The notes under the pieces: model-generated | The model's input: only the letters and a program-made list of their open reading frames with translations | Told to the model about the DNA's origin: nothing | Databases searched by the model: none | In this document: piece by piece, positions 13,829 to 24,238 of the stretch | Numbering within the stretch: position 1 is the first letter of the stretch | How the letters are laid out: each line of letters opens with the position of its first letter | From: Hwanghaeella sp. | GTDB lineage: Bacteria; Pseudomonadota; Alphaproteobacteria; UBA8366; Aestuariispiraceae | Length of the DNA stretch: 32,973 bases | Reading direction: 5' to 3' | Assembly: GCA_028282025.1 (NCBI GenBank) | Contig: JANQIT010000324.1 | Location: forward strand, 1 to 32,973 | Made by a program: the position numbers and the translations under genes

Positions 13829-13876
13829 TGGTGGGCTGTATAGGATTCGAACCTATGACCCGCTGATTAAGAGTCA
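13829..13876 (-). repeat. attL: displaced 3' segment of tRNA-Lys
   Basis: TGGTGGGCTGTATAGGATTCGAACCTATGACCCGCTGATTAAGAGTCA, identical to 24163-24210. Confidence 0.95.
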
Positions 13877-14004
13877 CTTTTTTGTAATTATCTTACAATG
13901 CGCTAACTTTCGCGAAAATAACGTAAATAGTTGTTATGTATATAAAAAGAAGCTTCCTCTTTACGCTCACCTTTACATCTAATACGCTCAAATTCGTTTC
14001 TTGG

Positions 14005-14025
14005 TGCTTACCTATTGCTTACCCG
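14005..14025 (+). repeat. Candidate integrase arm-type site pair (left)
   Basis: TGCTTACCTATTGCTTACCCG, exact 21-bp match to 24096-24116; a related pair lies at 14095-14114 (TGCTTACCCGAATGCTTACC). Confidence 0.65.
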
Positions 14026-14160
14026 AATGCTGAAAATCGGCCTTGCTGATAATGCGCTGAATAGGGTTAGTCGAGAGAGCGCCACAACAAGCCCTGCTTA
14101 CCCGAATGCTTACCTGACAATGGTAGCGCCGATTCCTGGGGAGGTCAGCGGCGCTAAAGT

Positions 14161-14547
14161 TTGAGGAGGAGGGGACGTACCTTGGGAACGCATTTAAGGA
14201 AATGGGCGGGTTGGTATGTGTCGTTATTGCTCTTGTTGGCACTCCTTATCACAAACGCTTTCTGGCTGTACGCGGTCTTGAGCCAAGCCGTGGGTTTGGA
14301 TCACCAAGCCAGATATCGTGAGAACTTAATGAATGATCGCGCGGCATTGATAACGGCGATCACGCATGACTTCCGCACAAAGACGATAGATCAGGCTCAG
14401 GCCCTCTTGGATGACCCAGTGAGGAAGACAGAGAACGGCGATGAGATGCTGTCAGCGGATCAGGTGGTCTTTTGGTACCGTGACGGGCGCTTGCATCATA
14501 TCGAAGACCTAGCCTCTCGCCCTTTCGCGACGTTCGAAATGGAGTGA
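14161..14547 (+). CDS. Small single-TM membrane protein, hypothetical (TTG start)
   Basis: 'GWYVSLLLLLALLITNAFWLYAVL' TM helix; ends 6 nt before the integrase ORF. Confidence 0.5.
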   Translation: MRRRGRTLGTHLRKWAGWYVSLLLLLALLITNAFWLYAVLSQAVGLDHQARYRENLMNDRAALITAITHDFRTKTIDQAQALLDDPVRKTENGDEMLSADQVVFWYRDGRLHHIEDLASRPFATFEME

Positions 14548-14553
14548 GGACGG

Positions 14554-15693
14554 ATGCCGAAACTCACCAAGCGATTTGTCGATATAGTCCGGCCTGCCGA
14601 GAAGGATGTCTTTCACTGGGATGATGACATTCCGGGTTTTGGATTGCGTGTCAAACCGTCAGGGGTGAAGAGCTACCTTGTACAGTACCGACAGGGGAAA
14701 CGGTCCAGGCGCATGACGTTGGGGCGGCACGGCGTCATCACAGCCGACGAAGCCCGCAAGCTCGCCAAGAAGGAACTCGGGGCCGTAGCACACGGCAAAG
14801 ACCCGGCTCAGGAGCGTGCAGACGACCGGCAAGCACCAACTGTAGGAGAGTTGGCCGCCGACTACATGGAGCGCCACGCGCGGCCCAATAAGCGCCCCTC
14901 GTCGATCCGTAACGACCGGCAGATGTTGGACAACCAGATCCTTCCCAAACTGGGCGCACAGAAGGTTGCCGATGTGACACGGCGCGATGTGGAGTCGATC
15001 TTCCTTGGCCTGTCCAAAACGCCATACCGGGCCAACCGGGTTCGCGCACTGCTGTCGAAGATGTTCTCCCTCGCCGTTCAGTGGGGCTGGCGCGCCGACA
15101 ACCCGGTTCTTGGCCTCCCCAAGTATCAAGAGGAAATGCGGGAGCGTTGGCTTCGGCAAGAGGAACTGGATCGGCTATTCGAGGCCCTCGATAAGCACCC
15201 AAATCAGAAATGCGCCAACATCGTCCGCTTGCTCGTCCTGACCGGTGCACGGAAGAGCGAAGTCCTAAAAATGACATGGGACCAAGTGGACCTTGACCGT
15301 GGCGTCTGGACTAAACCCTCGCATCTTACAAAACAGAAAAAGAACCAGCATTTCCCACTGTCGGATGCAGCGATGCAGATCTTGGCCAGCATAGATGCCG
15401 CACGGGGGGATCGCAGCGCCTACGTCTTTCCTAGTCGCCTCTCAGCGGATGAGCCGACACAAGACATCAAACGTTTCTGGCAGGAGATACAGCGCGACGC
15501 CGATCTAACCGATGTTCGAATGCACGATCTTCGTCACACCTTCGCATCACATCTTGTGTCGAGCGGTACTAGCGAGGCTATCGTCGGGCGTCTATTGGGG
15601 CACACGCAACCTCAAACCACGCGGCGTTATGCACACTTGGCCGACGATCCGCTAAGGGAAGCAGCGAACAGGTTCGGCCGTACTGCTGGTTGA
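14554..15693 (+). CDS. int: Tyrosine-type site-specific integrase (P4-like, N-terminal DUF4102)
   Basis: DUF4102 'DIPGFGLRVKPSGVKSYLVQYRQGKRSRRMTLG'; catalytic 'TGARKSEVL', 'HDLRHTFASHLVSSG', 'LLGHTQPQTTRRYAHL'. Confidence 0.95.
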   Translation: MPKLTKRFVDIVRPAEKDVFHWDDDIPGFGLRVKPSGVKSYLVQYRQGKRSRRMTLGRHGVITADEARKLAKKELGAVAHGKDPAQERADDRQAPTVGELAADYMERHARPNKRPSSIRNDRQMLDNQILPKLGAQKVADVTRRDVESIFLGLSKTPYRANRVRALLSKMFSLAVQWGWRADNPVLGLPKYQEEMRERWLRQEELDRLFEALDKHPNQKCANIVRLLVLTGARKSEVLKMTWDQVDLDRGVWTKPSHLTKQKKNQHFPLSDAAMQILASIDAARGDRSAYVFPSRLSADEPTQDIKRFWQEIQRDADLTDVRMHDLRHTFASHLVSSGTSEAIVGRLLGHTQPQTTRRYAHLADDPLREAANRFGRTAG

Positions 15694-15849
15694 AGGTTGG
15701 CCAGATCGAAGAATGCAGGCGCAAGAGTTTGGATACATACCAAGCCGGACAATACGCTTCCGTCGAGGAGCAATTCACTCGCTTGTCTTGTTTGGATCTT
15801 GACTTTTACTACCATGTCGGGATTTGGTTTCGCTGGGAGTGCGTCCAAA

Positions 15850-16428
15850 ATGCCGAAAGTGATTTACGTTACCGGTGCGCCAGCAGCAGGCAAGAGCTCA
15901 ACGCTCAGCCAAATTTCTGCCCGCATACCAACCGTCAGCGTTTGGGAGTATGGTGAAAAACTCACAGAGCATGTGGCGCAAAAAAGTTCGAGCCAACTCA
16001 ACCAGACCGACCTTCGTTCGCAATCTTCACAAGTCGTGACGACGAAAGATGTTGCTGAAGTAGATGCAGCGCTTCTTGCGTTTGTCGAAAACGAACGAGC
16101 CCGAAAACACATTCTAGTCGACAGCCACCCAGTCACAAAAGAGTCCTACGGTTTTCGGGTGACGCCATTTTCACTTCACCAGTTTTCGTCCCTACGACCG
16201 GATGAAATCTGGATGCTATTTGTCTGTCCCCAAACAACAAGACAGCGGATCGAAAATGACCCAGGTGGGCGTCCAATGGTCACTGAAGAAGAGGCTCGGA
16301 CCCATACACTAATCCAGGCATCAGTTGCAGCAACGTATGGGATGTCCACCGGGTGTCCGATTTACATGTTCGACACCTCATGTCCTCAGGAAGAGTTGGT
16401 AGAGCGCCTAATTGGGCGACTCACATGA
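15850..16428 (+). CDS. P-loop kinase resembling archaeal-type adenylate kinase (AdkA) (ORF opens at 15697)
   Basis: Walker A 'VTGAPAAGKSS'; 'LVDSHPVTKESYGFRVTPFSLHQFSSLRPDEIWMLFV...RQRIENDPGGRPMVTEEEARTHTLIQASVAATYGMSTGCPIYMF' parallels the AdkA C-terminal architecture. Confidence 0.7.
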   Translation: MPKVIYVTGAPAAGKSSTLSQISARIPTVSVWEYGEKLTEHVAQKSSSQLNQTDLRSQSSQVVTTKDVAEVDAALLAFVENERARKHILVDSHPVTKESYGFRVTPFSLHQFSSLRPDEIWMLFVCPQTTRQRIENDPGGRPMVTEEEARTHTLIQASVAATYGMSTGCPIYMFDTSCPQEELVERLIGRLT

Positions 16429-17348
16429 ATAAGGTATCGGACAAGGCAAGAAGAATGAAAAGCCCCGAAAGCCCAAAATCTGTTGGTAGACAGGAAAGTG
16501 GTGCAGCGAGAGCAGAGAGCCGCAGGGTAGATCTGCGAAAAGCCATAAACGCTGTCTCCGACGTAGTTCAAAATAGGCCTCGGCCCCTCAGAGTCTTCGA
16601 TCAGATACACATGAAGACTGGAGATATGGTCTTACAGAGTGAGATGATTGCTGACTGGGCCGACGGGAAGCGGTTGGCTTTTATTGGTGATGGAGATGCG
16701 ATCAGCGTTTGCGTAGCTTATCTCCACGCTCGAGAGGTGCTTACGTTTGGCCCGTCCCTAATCACAGTATTCGATTTCGACGAACGGACAGTTGAGGCTG
16801 TCAAGAATTTTGCTGACCGGGAAGGTATTACGAAACTGGATGCACAACTCTACAACGTTCTTGATGCTTTCCCGGAGATGGGACGCTTTGATTGTTTCTA
16901 TACCAATCCCCCTTGGGGAGCTTCAAACAACGGAGAGAGTGTAAACGTGTTCGTAGAACGCGGCATAGAGGCGACAGGCCATATGGGGGAAGGCGTTGTT
17001 GTAATTGCGGATGATGACGAACTTGATTGGCCAAAACAGGTTCTAGCAAATGTGCAAGGATTTGCAGCGGGGCATGGGTTCTATGTTTCTCGTATGCAGC
17101 GAAAGATTCACGAATATCATCTTGACGATGCACCGGAGCTGAGGTCGTGCAATTTGTATCTTGCTGCACTACCGGACAACCGCGTTCCCGCATCGAGTGT
17201 GCCAATTACGGATGCACAGCGTCTCGAGAACTTCTATGGTCTGTCGCAAAATCCGAGGGTTCGGTATGTCCTTGCTCGGCGGCGATTGGACTATGGTGTC
17301 GCGCATGAAGACGAGTACGAGCTGGAGTATTTAGAAGATGACGACTAA
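16425..17348 (+). CDS. BpsA/DUF43-like Rossmann-fold enzyme (SAM- or dcSAM-dependent) with NPPWG motif (ORF opens at 16353)
   Basis: 'LAFIGDGDAISVCVAYL', 'ITVFDFDERTVEAVKNFADREGI', 'FDCFYTNPPWGASNNGESVNVFVERGIEAT'; ATGA overlap with the upstream gene. Confidence 0.65.
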   Translation: MNKVSDKARRMKSPESPKSVGRQESGAARAESRRVDLRKAINAVSDVVQNRPRPLRVFDQIHMKTGDMVLQSEMIADWADGKRLAFIGDGDAISVCVAYLHAREVLTFGPSLITVFDFDERTVEAVKNFADREGITKLDAQLYNVLDAFPEMGRFDCFYTNPPWGASNNGESVNVFVERGIEATGHMGEGVVVIADDDELDWPKQVLANVQGFAAGHGFYVSRMQRKIHEYHLDDAPELRSCNLYLAALPDNRVPASSVPITDAQRLENFYGLSQNPRVRYVLARRRLDYGVAHEDEYELEYLEDDD

Positions 17349-17922
17349 TGAAATAATAAGACCTGGCGCTGGTGTGCTTTTCATGAAAGTGGGTACCCAT
17401 GCAAATGAGAGTCTCGCAGACATAATCGAGCGTAAGAAAGAAGAGATCGATAGTACTGGATTTGGGATGTGGGGCTATGGTGGGAACACTTGTCATCCAG
17501 GGTCGATGGTTCAGCCATTTGCTCGAAGCTTCGCGGAACGAGATCAATCCATTTATCTGTGTATGGAAGAAATCGAGTCCAAGCATTTTGCCAGTGGCGT
17601 TGCGGCCGAATACTCTGTTGACGGCGAAACTTGGGAAGAAATACCGGATACAGTTGAGGTTAGAGGTTCGCGCTATGCATTGGTTGTCGATGAGTTACAC
17701 GAGCAACACTTCATGCTGCCACTGGAGAAAACACGAGTTCCAGTAGGCCCGAGTACGGGCCGGCTCGGGAGCCGTTACATTAAAGGGCAAGTAGACAAAG
17801 CTTGTTTGGAGATCCTCGACGAACCTGAGCGGTCAAATGAAGAAGATCAACGCGAAGTCGAGATCCACCTCGTTTCTAGATTGAGAGATCCTTATGCGGT
17901 GTTTCTGAGAGGCGAAAGGTGA
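17338..17922 (+). CDS. Conserved-looking hypothetical protein, 'SL..II.RK..E...WG.GGN' family
   Basis: 194-aa ORF overlapping the upstream stop by 11 bp; motif shared with the 20445-21194 product. Confidence 0.6.
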   Translation: MTTNEIIRPGAGVLFMKVGTHANESLADIIERKKEEIDSTGFGMWGYGGNTCHPGSMVQPFARSFAERDQSIYLCMEEIESKHFASGVAAEYSVDGETWEEIPDTVEVRGSRYALVVDELHEQHFMLPLEKTRVPVGPSTGRLGSRYIKGQVDKACLEILDEPERSNEEDQREVEIHLVSRLRDPYAVFLRGER

Positions 17923-17971
17923 AGTGGCCGCTGGAATGGGACCAGTTACGCCCGCTTTCCACATGCTATAG

Positions 17972-18682
17972 ATGACGAAGGTGCTTTTGGAATCGCCGGT
18001 GTTGATAACTGACGCACTCGGCTTTTCTCAAACTATAGGATCCACAAGTATAGGTGACCTCAAAGAACTTGGGGAGAACCTCGAGCGTCAATTTCACGAG
18101 TTCGATGCAAAAGTACCTCGTAAGTTTGCCTTGGTCTCCGGCTCGAAGGTCATTGGCACGCGTGAGTTTGCAACGCTTCGCTTCAATGACATGTTTGTTC
18201 TGCATGCGACCCGGAAGATACAGGATAGCGCACTAGCTTTCCTCATTAGCGGATCACTTTTGTTTCATAAAATGCTCTTGGAAGGGCAAATTCCTAGAGG
18301 TGGCCTTGGTTTTGGTGAGATCTACCGGTCTGGGGATTTGCTCATAGGTAATGGTTTTCTTGATGCCTACCATGCAGCAGAGAAGCGCGATGACAGATCG
18401 CGCAACATATGTGCCGTGCAGTTGTCGCTAACGTTTTTGAGAACCATACCAAACACGGAACATGTCTATAGGTTGCTCTGTAGATATGACGGAAACTTTT
18501 ACATTCACCCATACACGCTGACCGATCCGGATATGGGGTTATTTTCGCCAGGACGAGTATTGAGGTTATTGCAAGCGTCTGGCGCAAATGGCGAAAAGCT
18601 TGTTGCGACCGAACGGTTCCTGGAGGGGTTGGAGGACTACGACTCGGCCAAACTGGATAGATCGGATGATAGACCAGGGTAG
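17972..18682 (+). CDS. Divergent class III nucleotide-cyclase-like protein
   Basis: 'VLITDALGFSQTI' (metal-Asp strand), 'LRFNDMFVL' (second Asp), 'GQIPRGGLGFGEIYRSGDLLIGNGFLDAYHAAEK' typical of degenerate cyclase homology domains. Confidence 0.55.
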   Translation: MTKVLLESPVLITDALGFSQTIGSTSIGDLKELGENLERQFHEFDAKVPRKFALVSGSKVIGTREFATLRFNDMFVLHATRKIQDSALAFLISGSLLFHKMLLEGQIPRGGLGFGEIYRSGDLLIGNGFLDAYHAAEKRDDRSRNICAVQLSLTFLRTIPNTEHVYRLLCRYDGNFYIHPYTLTDPDMGLFSPGRVLRLLQASGANGEKLVATERFLEGLEDYDSAKLDRSDDRPG

Positions 18683-18742
18683 GGAGTAGGTTGCGCGCCT
18701 TCGACGCAGCCACTTAGTCATCGTAAGTAAAGATCCAGTCTT

Positions 18743-19408
18743 TTAGCGGTGAAGAATGGAGAAGTCTTCACCGGGTACCAGCACCTTAGGTGCTTCTTTC
18801 CGCAAGCTCTCAATGTAGCTAGTGAGGGCGTTCAGAATGAGTGGAGGCTCTGTTTCGTCGCTAGTGCAGCTGAAGCATATACTGATTGCACGATCAACGT
18901 TCGGCTCGGCACACACCCTGTCTCGTGTGGAAGGAATCCAGTAATTTAGTACTAGGTGGGCGATAAGCTGTTCGAAGCAGCCAATGCATTCTGTTACTTT
19001 ACCATCACCAACAACGGAAATTGCACGGATTGCGCGTTTGTCTCCGGTAACCATGAGTTTTCCAGAACGATTGATGAGTATTGCTAGTAGCTGGCTTTCA
19101 CCTCCATCAAGCTCGAGATTGATGCGGCGTGCTTCCGCCTCGAAGTCTGCAGCGATCGCTAGTTCGCTTTCATCTGGTTCCAAGAAGGAGATTTGCTTCA
19201 GGATCGCTCCAAGCGCCGCCTTTGCTGTTTCGGCGCTTTGTATCCTCGAGCTTCGGTCGATCTTGTTGGTCACGACGTAACGTCCGACACCCAGCATAGA
19301 TGGAGACGCACCTGACGGAGAGAGTGCCTCAAGCATCTCTTGCTCTAGAGAGAAGCAAGCAGTCTTTAGAACGACATCGTTATCTAACAGAACTAGGTCA
19401 GCCATCAT
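18743..19408 (-). CDS. PIN-like domain protein (putative nuclease)
   Basis: 'MADLVLLDNDVVLKTA', 'LELDGGESQLLAILINRSGKLMVTGDKRAIRAI' match PIN acidic motifs; overlaps the ImmA-like gene by 11 bp. Confidence 0.65.
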   Translation of the reverse strand: MMADLVLLDNDVVLKTACFSLEQEMLEALSPSGASPSMLGVGRYVVTNKIDRSSRIQSAETAKAALGAILKQISFLEPDESELAIAADFEAEARRINLELDGGESQLLAILINRSGKLMVTGDKRAIRAISVVGDGKVTECIGCFEQLIAHLVLNYWIPSTRDRVCAEPNVDRAISICFSCTSDETEPPLILNALTSYIESLRKEAPKVLVPGEDFSILHR

Positions 19409-20390
19409 TCCCGGTCATAACCTCCTCCAGGTAGTAGGCTGAACCGTCACCTAGCGCTTCCCAGTTTATTTCCCCGTGTGCGATACCGTTCACTTCCTTC
19501 CAAGTCGGTTTCTGTTCTGAATATATAAACCTCATGGCTGCCATAGCGGCCGGCCACGCATTGCGCTGATACGCCAAGCACAATGCGAGTGTGCCGGGCT
19601 CTATCGCGTATTCCTTAGCGGCTGTGAGGGCCGACCTAGCCAACGTAGGAGCGTTGAAGCGATCAACATTGGTTTCAATTAGGGGCTGTGATGACCCAGT
19701 TAAGAGGGTGAGCGCAAACCGATCTGCTTCGTTCTCTTGTTCGTCATCGCCCTTGGCACGGGCTGGGTCTTCCAGATCCACAAGGGCTGGTGCGTCTGCT
19801 AGGTGTCTGAGCACTATGTGGCCCAATTCATGCGCCAACGTGAATGCAACCGGTGCCGGGTACAGTGCATTCCGGCCCAGTAGGATCGCGTAGCGATCTC
19901 CAATTCGCACGGCCATAGCATGCATAGACTTCGCTTCTAACGGGAATACGCGGAGGTAGATGACAGGAATTCCAATAGCCCAGCATGTCGCTATCAAAGT
20001 GCGTAGGTCGACAAATTCGTTTTTTGCTAGGATTGCTCCTCGCAGTTGCTCTGCAGTATCAATTGTTGTGTGTGGGGTATGTAGGGTACGGAGTAAGACT
20101 CCCCCAATAGACATCCCAAATGAAGTTAGAGCTCCTTTTTGGAGTTCGTCTTTCGCTGAGAGGTTCTTAAACAGCGCTTCGTCATTCCAGACAAACTCGA
20201 CCCTTTCACCTAGTAGTGGTTTCGGCTCCAAGCCGAGGCGTCGGGCAATTGCAAAACGCAGCTCTGCCCGGCCGGAGGGCGATTGGGCGGCTTCGTCCGT
20301 CCACCACTTTGGCCAAGCAGCTTCAATTGCACTTCGACTAATTCCTGCTTCCAGCAGCAGTTCAACCAGCGAACTCTCATCCTTGCCCAA
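19398..20390 (-). CDS. ImmA/IrrE-family metallo-endopeptidase
   Basis: 'PVAFTLAHELGHIVLRHL' HExxH motif and 'DEQENEADRFALTLL' third zinc-ligand region. Confidence 0.88.
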   Translation of the reverse strand: MGKDESSLVELLLEAGISRSAIEAAWPKWWTDEAAQSPSGRAELRFAIARRLGLEPKPLLGERVEFVWNDEALFKNLSAKDELQKGALTSFGMSIGGVLLRTLHTPHTTIDTAEQLRGAILAKNEFVDLRTLIATCWAIGIPVIYLRVFPLEAKSMHAMAVRIGDRYAILLGRNALYPAPVAFTLAHELGHIVLRHLADAPALVDLEDPARAKGDDEQENEADRFALTLLTGSSQPLIETNVDRFNAPTLARSALTAAKEYAIEPGTLALCLAYQRNAWPAAMAAMRFIYSEQKPTWKEVNGIAHGEINWEALGDGSAYYLEEVMTGNDG

Positions 20391-20444
20391 AATTCCCCCC
20401 TAGAAGCTCATAAAGCTTGCCGCATTTGGGCGCGAATGATGGTA

Positions 20445-21194
20445 CTACAGCAGCGCGCCTTGAGCTTGTGCTCCCCTTAGCATGCTTGGGCCGCTGCGAA
20501 TATACTCTACAGCCTCGTGCCATTCGTTTGGGTTGCAGCCTTCAATTGAATTAAGGAGAGATACTTTATCACTCTGCAGCTCCAAGGGGTCCAACAATCG
20601 AACCCAATAACTATCTGTGAGAAAGGCAGAGAGATTTACTTCATAGTCCGCATTTTCGGTATCGCTCGCGACCTTCTCAAGTAGTGCAGTTACTTGTGAT
20701 GGGCCCACCGGGGCACGATTTCCGCCAGCATTTCGGTACGCTGACGGGTCAAATGGGACTTCGTGCTGAACTGAAAGACGATGATCGGATCGGCAAATGA
20801 GCGCATTGTGTCTACTTTTAGGCCCTTTTGCGCTGTCTCCACGGCTGGTTACTAGTGCACTTCGTGGGAGAGGCTTAACGACACCATACATGTCAATGTA
20901 TGAGCGCCAAACTACGGTTCGCGTCGGCTCCACATCGACCATTTTTGGCTTCGACTTCATGACAGAAAAGACGGCGCTTACAGGCGTCTTCGAACGGGCT
21001 AAGGCGCTTGTGATAGTTGCAGGTGGGTTGCCAACACCCCAAAAGAATACTCCGCCGCTTGCTACTCGTTCCGTCTCTTTTCGTGAGACAATGCTGCTGA
21101 GCGATTGTCCCGCCTCGGCCTGCATACGGGACCAGCATACGAACTCCCCTATCTCTTTGTGTTTGCGAAGTTCACCCACTGCATTAACCGACAT
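20445..21194 (-). CDS. Hypothetical protein, second member of the 'SL..I..RK..E...WG.GN' family
   Basis: 'AEAGQSLSSIVSRKETERVASGGVFFWGVGNPP', C-terminal 'DYEVNLSAFLTDSYWVRLL'; 54 bp upstream of and co-directional with immA-like. Confidence 0.6.
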   Translation of the reverse strand: MSVNAVGELRKHKEIGEFVCWSRMQAEAGQSLSSIVSRKETERVASGGVFFWGVGNPPATITSALARSKTPVSAVFSVMKSKPKMVDVEPTRTVVWRSYIDMYGVVKPLPRSALVTSRGDSAKGPKSRHNALICRSDHRLSVQHEVPFDPSAYRNAGGNRAPVGPSQVTALLEKVASDTENADYEVNLSAFLTDSYWVRLLDPLELQSDKVSLLNSIEGCNPNEWHEAVEYIRSGPSMLRGAQAQGALL

Positions 21195-21295
21195 AGAATA
21201 CTGACCCTCTCCCTTAGCTTGAATGTCGCACGTGAGCTTTCCCGGCTCAACCGAATCGTTGGTTGATGAGGGGCAATTGGACGCCTTAGCCCTGC

Positions 21296-22441
21296 CTATT
21301 CAAGGAACACTAAACGGTCGCGGGTCCGCCGAATTGCTTGTTGGAGATCGTAGCTGTTGCCCTTGAGCCGTTTGGTTACTTCGCGTGCGACGAGCTCTGG
21401 CATTTTGGCCTCAATTTCTTCGTCACTAAGGCCCTTTGAAACGGCCAGACCCACCGCATTGCCGGTGCAAAGGGCGAGGTAGGTGTCGTGGGCGTCTCCT
21501 CGTGCAATCTCTTTTACCTGGTTTGGGGTCAGCCCTGACCGGAGTTCGCTCAGTTCTTGGGCTGCGATGCTCTGTGCCGCGTGCCAGATCGGGTGCAGTT
21601 CTTGTCGCGAAACGTTGCTGTCGCCCTGATGGTCCGCGAGGTATCGCACTTCTTGCAGGGCGTTCGCGATGACATCGCCTATGCCTGCCCCTAGATCGTC
21701 AATTGTCCGGATTTGATACTTGTCCTTCAGCTCCTTCTTTCCGGCGCGAACCTCGATCCGCCAGACCTCCAGATCAGGATCTTTACGGTCCTTGCCCCAG
21801 GCGGCGAACCAGAAGTGTTTGCGCCTCTCGATGGCTTCGCGCCTTTTGTTGTAGAGAATGATTTGGCGGCCTGGCTGCTTGCCGATTGTAACGCTCTCCG
21901 CGCGCCGTCCCCGGAAAACGGTTGCGGGCTGACTGCGGTCGTCTGTAGCGGCCTGGTCGCCCCAATAGGGCATGACCTTGCAATGCGAGTGCGCGACTAC
22001 TTGTTCCGGGTGCAGTTCAAAGCTGTGGGTCTGAAAATCCATCGCGAAGTCCACCCGGTTAATCGCGTGATTTACGATCCGGCCACCCATACCGATGAAT
22101 TCGGTATGCAGATTTGCGACGCAGGTTTGCCATCCATGAGCGAGTAAGGCGGTTGCGTGGGGTGAGGCGAACAAGTTCCACTGGCTTGCGTCCGCATTCT
22201 TTTTGACCATCCATTTCGCGCCTAAGGGGCCGGTATCAAGAAGATAGCGGTATCCGCCCTTCATGCCGTGACCAGCAATGTGGGCCTGAACCTTTTCTGG
22301 CCCGATTTCGACCAACACTTTGTCTTGCCGTGTTTCCGCTTCTTCGCGGGCTGCGTCCAGTTTCTCCATCACATCGACAGGCAGGGCACCCGTGAACGCG
22401 ATGTCCAATGTATCGAACCCGGCATAAAGCAAATTCGCCAT
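21296..22441 (-). CDS. Replication initiation factor / MobT-like protein (Rep_trans, PF02486-like)
   Basis: 'FDTLDIAFTG' start, 'NRVDFAMDF', 'GRQIILYNKRREAI', 'DLEVWRIEVRAGKKELK' motif order. Confidence 0.75.
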   Translation of the reverse strand: MANLLYAGFDTLDIAFTGALPVDVMEKLDAAREEAETRQDKVLVEIGPEKVQAHIAGHGMKGGYRYLLDTGPLGAKWMVKKNADASQWNLFASPHATALLAHGWQTCVANLHTEFIGMGGRIVNHAINRVDFAMDFQTHSFELHPEQVVAHSHCKVMPYWGDQAATDDRSQPATVFRGRRAESVTIGKQPGRQIILYNKRREAIERRKHFWFAAWGKDRKDPDLEVWRIEVRAGKKELKDKYQIRTIDDLGAGIGDVIANALQEVRYLADHQGDSNVSRQELHPIWHAAQSIAAQELSELRSGLTPNQVKEIARGDAHDTYLALCTGNAVGLAVSKGLSDEEIEAKMPELVAREVTKRLKGNSYDLQQAIRRTRDRLVFLE

Positions 22442-22644
22442 TTCATACGCTCCACTACGCTCGTGTAATTCTAGAGGGGGGTGTTACAAGGACCCCCTCT
22501 TGGTCTTGCCGTGCTGAATTCCTAACCCCAAATCCGATTACCAAGCCGCGCTGACGCGCAGTACGGCGCTCCGCGCCGGGGCCGCTTTGTGTTTTAGGGG
22601 CGGGGAGGGGGAAGGGGATTTGTTGGGAAGGGGGGTGGGATTGC

Positions 22645-22783
22645 GCGTACCGTTACGCAAACCCTTGGGGTTTGAGAAAGCCTTAGGGTTTTGGACCCCG
22701 TTACGATACGGGTTTGGGAACTTCTTAGGCCCTACGTTACGTAACGTAACGTTAGGGCCGGATGCCGTAACGGCACCCGGCCC
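22645..22783. repeat. Iteron-like and palindromic cluster; candidate replication or transfer origin
   Basis: Six CGTTACG/CGTAACG copies (22651, 22699, 22735 forward; 22740, 22745, 22766 reverse) plus five inverted repeats upstream of the Rep/MobT-like gene. Confidence 0.6.
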
Positions 22784-22941
22784 GTAAGGTGAATACCGGA
22801 GGTACGGGGCGGGACGATACCCGAAGCCCAAACCAGCCTTAGCCGTTTCCGATATCCGCCCCCAAAATCCCCGACGGCGCGGCCAGCCCCGCCAGGGCAA
22901 AACCCTTACGTACGCATCGGGGGTGATGCACACCTGGAATG

Positions 22942-23187
22942 TCACGTGGCTGCCTTGGACGTATGGGCGCAGCGCAGCCGCTCGCACCATTCAATCAGAT
23001 CCCGACGGCGATATCGTACGGACCGCTTCGACACTTTAATGAAATGAGGCCCGCCCCCTTTCACGCGCCACCCCTGTAAGGCGCGTATCGTATAGCTGAG
23101 AAATCCGGCTGCTTCGGTTTCGTCTATCAGGCGGTCCAGGTAGTCAGGATCGCGCGCCAGGTTTTCCGAAAGGTGCTGAAACTGCAT
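22942..23187 (-). CDS. AlpA/excisionase-type HTH protein
   Basis: 'LSYTIRALQGWRVKGGGPHFIKVSKRSVRYRRRDLIEWCERLR'. Confidence 0.8.
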   Translation of the reverse strand: MQFQHLSENLARDPDYLDRLIDETEAAGFLSYTIRALQGWRVKGGGPHFIKVSKRSVRYRRRDLIEWCERLRCAHTSKAAT

Positions 23188-23274
23188 TCGCTCACTCCGT
23201 GTGCGTTGCTGGCGGGTGAGCGATATGTGCGGCAGTTCTACGCCAAGAAAAATGCCAATAAATTGGCGCGCAAT

Positions 23275-24048
23275 TTATTGTTTTTGGGCGCGTTGCATCT
23301 CTTTGAATTCAGGGGAAATCACCTGACGAATGGTTTCGTCCGAGGTGGTCTTGAATTGGCCTGCACGGTCAGGGTGAATCTTACAGAGATGGCTGCGGAT
23401 CGGTTCGTAATGCGATGCCATGCTCTTCGAAGGGTCTATGGCACCTTGTTGCTTCAGGCTCTGGTAGGCGTTGAATATATCTTCCTTCTGGGAAGGCCGC
23501 TCACGTGCCGGTGCCACGACCTGTAACGGACCGGAAGGAAGAGCCGCGTAACGCTGTTCGACGTCCGCAAGAGCGGCAATCCGAACGGCGACGAACTTCA
23601 TCCCGTTACCGGAAACGGTTTCCGTGTCCCAGTCCACCGAGACATTCCAAACGTCGGTCGGAATCCGTACCGGTGTGCAGGTCGGGGACCGCGGAAGGGC
23701 ATATCCAATCGCCAGCAATTTTCCGCCTATCACCCGGCTATGAAGGTAGTCCTTCAGGTTCTGCTCGGCCTCGCGGAGGTTTTGGTTACGGTTCACGGTC
23801 GGCCTCAGTTGTTTCAGGCTGACGGCGAGCCCTTTTACCCAGCTTGAGTTCTCCGGCAAGTCTGGCATCTCTGGCTGCGCGATGGGCCTTGCTTGAAGGG
23901 CGCGTAAGGCTTCCAGGAGCTTCTCAGGTGCGAGTTCGTGGGGCGCTTTGCGCAAGGGAACGCCTGCTGCCCAAACCTCCCGCCAGATTTCTGTTTCATC
24001 ACCCGGTTGCATGCATAGAAGGTGTAAGGAGTCGGTCGCGATCCACAA
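23275..24048 (-). CDS. Element-borne hypothetical protein
   Basis: 257-aa ORF filling the interval between the AlpA-like gene and the right arm sites. Confidence 0.55.
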   Translation of the reverse strand: MWIATDSLHLLCMQPGDETEIWREVWAAGVPLRKAPHELAPEKLLEALRALQARPIAQPEMPDLPENSSWVKGLAVSLKQLRPTVNRNQNLREAEQNLKDYLHSRVIGGKLLAIGYALPRSPTCTPVRIPTDVWNVSVDWDTETVSGNGMKFVAVRIAALADVEQRYAALPSGPLQVVAPARERPSQKEDIFNAYQSLKQQGAIDPSKSMASHYEPIRSHLCKIHPDRAGQFKTTSDETIRQVISPEFKEMQRAQKQ

Positions 24049-24095
24049 CTGGAAATTATCCGGGTGTCTGGTGCACTCAGAAGCGGGCGTCCGCT

Positions 24096-24116
24096 TGCTT
24101 ACCTATTGCTTACCCG
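24096..24116 (+). repeat. Candidate integrase arm-type site pair (right)
   Basis: Exact direct copy of 14005-14025, 46 bp inside attR. Confidence 0.65.
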
Positions 24117-24162
24117 GACAAATCCAGGTTCAAGGTGATAGGCCATAAGTCATTGAAATAAT

Positions 24163-24238
<76 letters not shown>

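Follow-up and report, generated by a model that had tools for sequence, protein, structure and literature searches.

XRE-ImmA pairs (COG2856) beside a toxin gene are a familiar regulator and antitoxin arrangement, and relatives of ImmA/IrrE inactivate repressors, as in ImmA-ImmR of ICEBs1 and in IrrE-DdrO. A second group of described systems are the (PIN)-GNAT-EVE operons, which have been predicted to act as toxin-antitoxin or defence systems and occur with ASCH, an AAA_17 ATPase and an XRE-type helix-turn-helix (HTH) regulator (Bell et al., 2020; PMC7641849). Two of their proteins are thought to read modified bases (PMC7641849). Among enzymes, N4-bis(aminopropyl)spermidine synthase BpsA (PF01861) is of relevance here. 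In BpsA, Asp159 of the GDDD motif is essential for placing decarboxylated S-adenosylmethionine (dcSAM), Asp225 is also important, and the acidic C-terminal tail carries the aminopropyl group (PMC12979288). We describe here a locus in a stretch of 32,973 nucleotides from Hwanghaeella sp. (contig JANQIT010000324.1, hereafter the window) that has features of all of these. It encodes a methyltransferase-like enzyme of family PF01861 (MT), two related proteins termed P1 and P2, a PIN-type nuclease and an ImmA/IrrE-type metallopeptidase. Judged from their sequences, P1 and P2 are paralogs that diverged long ago and are homologous along their whole length, and in our judgement they are, with a probability of about 0.95, two fixed paralogous subunits of a single unit with MT, PIN and ImmA.

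The unit resembles the (PIN)-GNAT-EVE operons (PMC7641849) in combining a PIN-type nuclease with a P-loop protein of the AAA_17 type and a regulator of the XRE type, and in its sporadic occurrence in defence neighbourhoods; the counterpart of their two base-reading proteins would be the pair P1/P2. However, the unit lacks GNAT and has a PF01861 enzyme and an ImmA peptidase, and P1 and P2 are without sequence similarity to EVE; we regard this as a likeness and not as demonstrated descent.

Homology of P1 and P2

P1 (17338-17922, + strand, 194 amino acids) and P2 (20445-21194, - strand, 249 amino acids) were found at the positions given in the initial annotation, which had proposed them to be diverged homologs on the basis of an N-terminal and a C-terminal motif aligned by eye. 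Overall identity between the two proteins is low. Pairwise BLASTP recovers the N-terminal motif with E = 2e-5, and the C-terminal motif falls within the same colinear P1-P2 alignment. The initial annotation had named a non-significant profile-profile comparison as grounds to abandon the homology, but the comparison is significant, with E = 1.3e-5 for small families of 5 and 8 sequences. When 73 P1 and 74 P2 sequences were aligned separately, hhalign gave E = 3.8e-11 with a probability of 97% over 165 columns, while control profiles (methyltransferase, PIN, ImmA, kinase, EVE) against P1 or P2 gave E values of at least 0.026. Iterated hidden Markov models seeded by a single P1 or a single P2 absorb the other family (from 93 to 181 and from 99 to 183 hits, respectively), so that each protein recovers the other in the way that had been suggested as a check. 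The AlphaFold models are confident (predicted local distance difference test scores of 93.5 and 91.6) and the secondary-structure elements of P1 and P2 are colinear. Residues I29, R32, K33, E36, W45, G46, G48, G96, A114, L115 and L190 (P1 numbering) are invariant in an alignment of 14 P1 and P2 sequences. A combined tree separates P1 from P2 with a support of 1.0 on a very long branch, indicating an old duplication.

Neither protein has a match in Pfam, NCBIfam, PADLOC or PHROGs. With P2, tblastn against 50,697 phage records and a fold search in BFVD returned no match, and profiles of P1, of P2 and of both combined gave chance matches only against PDB sequences.

A five-gene unit

In a scan of about 85,000 genomes the P1 alignment recovered 103 confirmed relatives. 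We retrieved the loci of the best 80, and the counts that follow thus cover the closer relatives of P1. Seventy of these loci extend from P1 by 3.5 kb or more on the right and by 1 kb or more on the left and were taken as complete; MT, P1, PIN, ImmA and P2 are all present in every one of them. Going by the titles of the records, P1 loci occur in Alpha-, Beta- and Gammaproteobacteria, Actinomycetota, Acidobacteriota, Chloroflexota, Cyanobacteriota and Bacteroidota, hence in at least six phyla, with the reservation that many of these genomes are metagenome-assembled and single taxonomic assignments may be wrong. Across the 80 loci, the five genes show correlated protein distances (r 0.63-0.87; none of 500 permutations gave a value as high), in part because of shared species history. 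The correlation also holds for genes from different halves of the unit, with r 0.87 for MT-ImmA and r 0.81 for P1-ImmA. Among 399 independently drawn genomes of the phylum, three contained P1; P2 was present in these three and in one more, and in at least the two intact cases both genes lie on one contig. Furthermore, tblastn located P1 and P2 together on plasmids of Sinorhizobium fredii, Rhizobium sp. AB2/73 and Agrobacterium tumefaciens, where the gene order is that of the window except for a cyclase-like gene. A literature search for this gene combination, covering part of the literature, found no description; a paper on Rhizobium conjugation (PMC4294206) came up by way of DUF433, not DUF43, and is unrelated to the unit.

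The typical arrangement is MT followed by P1, facing tail to tail the PIN gene that follows ImmA, plus P2. In the window MT and P1 overlap by 11 nt, and so do PIN and ImmA. P2 was described by the initial annotation as heading an ImmA-PIN operon. This holds for 34 of the 70 loci, the window included, in which P2 lies upstream of ImmA on the same strand; in the other 36 P2 is divergent from ImmA, and in 22 of these an XRE-type repressor gene (HTH_31, 1.6e-11) was detected between them. Such a repressor gene is found in 24/70 loci overall and was not detected in the class with codirectional P2, to which the window belongs. Rearranged layouts occur in a few loci, e.g., in Pseudomonas koreensis. 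The unit resembles XRE-ImmA pairs (COG2856) in having an ImmA/IrrE-type peptidase by a small XRE repressor together with a PIN-type gene on mobile elements. It differs from them by MT, P1 and P2 as constant parts and by the class in which no XRE gene was detected.

MT (16425-17348, + strand) probably starts at ATG 16425, in a reading frame open from 16353. It scores 64.3 bits in PF01861 (BpsA_C, 1.3e-17) against a gathering cut-off of 27. Together with BpsA it shares the Pfam family, the overall motif layout and an acidic C-terminus. In contrast to BpsA, MT is shorter and always coupled to P1, and the two aspartates differ: Asp159 is replaced by Gly (GDGD in 88/89 proteins) and Asp225 of the DPP motif by Asn (NPPW in 86/89). 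Methyltransferases that act on planar amino groups have the motif in the form NPPW. For this clade, the label "bis-aminopropyl spermidine synthase family protein" used in databases is probably misleading. Nearly all MT proteins end in an acidic tail DDEYxLELLE (about 17290-17345 in the window), which could be a BpsA-like carrier site or a docking peptide for P1. Second MT-P1 pairs without PIN, ImmA or P2 of their own stand beside a complete unit in loci L032 (6936-8751, where the extra P1 appears broken) and L041 (5685-7147), indicating that MT-P1 is a sub-module.

On the opposite strand, the predicted PIN nuclease (18743-19408, - strand) has no Pfam match and was assigned by its motif pattern. 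Its acidic set D9, D11, D101xGE104 and TGD123K, with D9, D11, D101, E104 and D123 as predicted active site, is conserved over 85 sequences. ImmA (19398-20390, - strand) is a member of the M78 type with 33.6 bits against a Pfam cut-off of 22 (3.7e-8), and the HExxH zinc site is kept in 87/89 proteins. Within 18743-20390, PIN matches phrog_15597 (1.5e-12) and ImmA matches phrog_18577 (3.3e-51), both phage families of unknown function, hinting at phage-borne ImmA-PIN pairs.

P2 also occurs in other settings. In Methylomonas and Burkholderia a stand-alone P2 and a small XRE-like gene are arranged divergently (loci L007, 9552-10762; L009, 9577-10894; L010, 9593-10903), possibly forming a two-gene pair of sensor and regulator. 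In S. fredii NXT3 (L003, 12260-13071) and P. koreensis P19E3 (L006, 11166-11937) a frameshift or sequence divergence splits P2.

Two further genes accompany the unit in some loci. Directly upstream of MT in the window lies a gene for a P-loop kinase of the AAA_17 or archaeal-adenylate-kinase-like type (15850-16428, + strand; Pfam AAA_17 7.6e-13, PRK04040 4e-10), with ATG 15850 as likely start in a frame open from 15697. It is optional, being present in 32/70 loci at varying positions. Downstream of P1, a putative class III nucleotide-cyclase-like protein (17972-18682, + strand) was recognised by its motifs and has no Pfam match; Asp14 and Asp73 are invariant in three homologs. This gene was seen in three of about 90 loci only, those of the window, Sphingomonas panni and Neorhizobium petrolearium, among the fetched loci always with the unit, and in N. 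petrolearium it stands at the opposite end. We therefore consider it an accessory gene, and the description of P1 as part of a cyclase operon in the initial annotation is misleading. In the Sphingomonas-related loci L013, L014 and L015 mercury-resistance genes are inserted between P1 and PIN, consistent with a junction of two transcription units at this site.

Carrier element and genomic neighbourhood

The five-gene unit is mobile and is carried by plasmids and integrated elements. In the window it is cargo of a 10.3-kb element (13829-24210) integrated at tRNA-Lys(CTT) and bounded by perfect direct repeats of 48 bp. The left repeat (13829-13876) is identical to the right one (24163-24210), which lies inside the 3' part of the tRNA gene (24163-24238, - strand). 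G+C content of the element is 53%, compared with 59-62% in the flanks. A tyrosine integrase is encoded at 14554-15693 (+ strand; Pfam Phage_integrase 1.2e-32, Arm-DNA-bind_3). Two further carrier genes lie beyond P2: a replication-initiation-factor-like protein outside the unit (21296-22441, - strand), for which the Rep_trans match is weak and below cut-off (E 0.0099), and an AlpA/excisionase-like HTH protein (22942-23187, - strand; HTH_17 7.2e-5, below cut-off). An RNA-family search of the element found the tRNA only. P1 and P2 are absent from the 98 relatives searched, and in a genome of the same genus the tRNA is next to homologous downstream DNA, without P1 or P2.

Known defence genes are found close to the unit. 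On the annotated rhizobial plasmids it is adjoined by genes of the GajA/GajB type (Gabija), by LmuA/LmuB (Lamassu) and by AbiEii. PADLOC matches among 139 open reading frames of the flanks, many of which are probably not genes, include PtuA/PtuB (Septu), IetA, SoFic, restriction enzymes, DndB and others. For the unit itself, PADLOC has no match to P1, P2 or PIN, generic peptidase matches to ImmA and a partial mad2 match to MT.

Possible function of the unit

In our judgement the unit is probably a conflict system with a defence or toxin-type role. What has been demonstrated is its anatomy; how it might work we infer, and we give the following mechanism at best somewhat less than an even chance. 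The PIN nuclease would be the toxic effector that cleaves RNA, and the ImmA/IrrE peptidase, with the XRE repressor where present, would switch it by proteolysis, either keeping it in check or setting it free. A stoichiometric writer complex may be formed by MT and P1, in which P1 recognises the substrate and MT transfers a methyl or related group onto a nucleic-acid amino group. P2 would sense the same class of ligand as P1 and signal the state of this ligand to the ImmA-PIN arm, so that the nuclease would be unleashed when the mark is lost or altered, e.g., during phage takeover. Since one paralog is fixed to the transferase gene and the other stands by the repressor and protease side, the simplest assumption is that both bind the same type of ligand, one for writing and one for sensing. 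Least secure in this scheme are the MT chemistry, the P1 and P2 ligand and the direction of signalling. A more specific version, in which MT-P1 writes a base mark on RNA, P2 reads it and a missing mark lets ImmA release the PIN ribonuclease, would be a self/non-self system and an RNA-level counterpart of restriction-modification, with writer partner and reader derived from one duplication; we regard this version as improbable.

Several observations weigh against this mechanism. Reading of modified bases by P1 and P2 is suggested by the analogy to the (PIN)-GNAT-EVE operons together with non-significant matches to the YTH domain, an m6A (N6-methyladenosine) reader of the PUA superfamily. The YTH domain is the most recurrent fold among the Foldseek matches of both models; it has a similar N-terminal beta-alpha-beta-alpha-beta order and has Trp at the positions of W45/W52 and W99/W96 of P1/P2. 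However, the best YTH fold match has E 0.17, a probability of 0.18 and a template-modelling score of 0.24 (best E for P2 0.32), most fold matches have root-mean-square deviations above 10 A, and P1 and P2 are without sequence similarity to YTH, hence the fold is not assignable. PF04146 (YTH) has no Pfam match among the 73 P1 or 74 P2 members, and hhalign to a 60-residue YTHDC1 fragment was no better than to shuffled fragments. The motif likeness read by eye thus did not beat its controls, and membership in the YTH family was dropped. A YTH search in 142 genomes of the class gave no match, but neither did its controls. EVE membership is not supported by sequence tests, as EVE against the P1 and P2 profiles gave E 0.47 and 0.12 and no Pfam EVE match was found. 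Moreover, P2 is also found without MT, P1, PIN and ImmA, so that its ligand need not be a product of MT. The two strains with a broken P2, S. fredii NXT3 and P. koreensis P19E3, seem to have their remaining core genes intact, indicating that P2 may be dispensable in some hosts. The enrichment of defence genes near the unit is an impression from flank counts without a matched control set.

The same gene content can be read differently. The occurrence of P2 alone, the extra MT-P1 pairs without an ImmA-PIN arm (L032, L041) and the mercury-resistance genes between the halves in L013-L015 would fit two independent neighbouring conflict systems that share a module, as the initial annotation proposed. 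Yet both halves are present in all 70 complete loci from the closer relatives of P1, and protein distances are correlated between genes of the two halves, so that two separate systems are rejected and we find this proposal scarcely credible. An elaborated toxin-antitoxin or addiction module deserves more weight, although we consider it unlikely: PIN would be the toxin, XRE-ImmA the antitoxin, and MT-P1 and P2 add-ons for immunity or regulation that stabilise the carrier, with no need for phage sensing. This is in line with the overlapping PIN and ImmA genes, the familiar position of XRE-ImmA next to toxins, the location on plasmids and an integrated element, and the phage-borne relatives of PIN and ImmA. 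However, MT with an intact predicted site, P1 and P2 exceed in every complete locus what toxin and antitoxin need, and the setting is frequently a defence island.

Alternatively, a BpsA-like MT could act as aminopropyl- or methyltransferase on a polyamine or nucleotide, with the kinase and, in the window, the cyclase also acting on nucleotides, and P1 and P2 would bind the product, which gates ImmA-PIN. The closest solved relatives of MT are indeed BpsA polyamine aminopropyltransferases (PDB 5xnc, 1.6e-7), and at least 5 acidic residues stand within the last 15 of MT in 74/89 proteins, similar to the tail that carries the aminopropyl group in BpsA (PMC12979288). This resemblance, which speaks against a nucleic-acid writer, keeps the small-molecule explanation alive, and the kinase in 32 loci adds to it. 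Nevertheless, the two BpsA aspartates are exchanged in nearly all MT proteins and neither kinase nor cyclase is a constant part, hence we judge it rather improbable.

We therefore favour a single conflict unit in which MT-P1 would write and P2 would sense. Its five genes with their predicted active sites are open to mutation one by one, and the stand-alone P2 pairs provide a natural control. From the duplication one would expect P1 and P2 to share one kind of ligand. If our interpretation is true, the clade labelled "bis-aminopropyl spermidine synthase" is suggested to be misnamed, and the locus would represent a compact and widespread immunity-like unit, two central proteins of which belong to a family without an entry in Pfam, NCBIfam, PADLOC or PHROGs.

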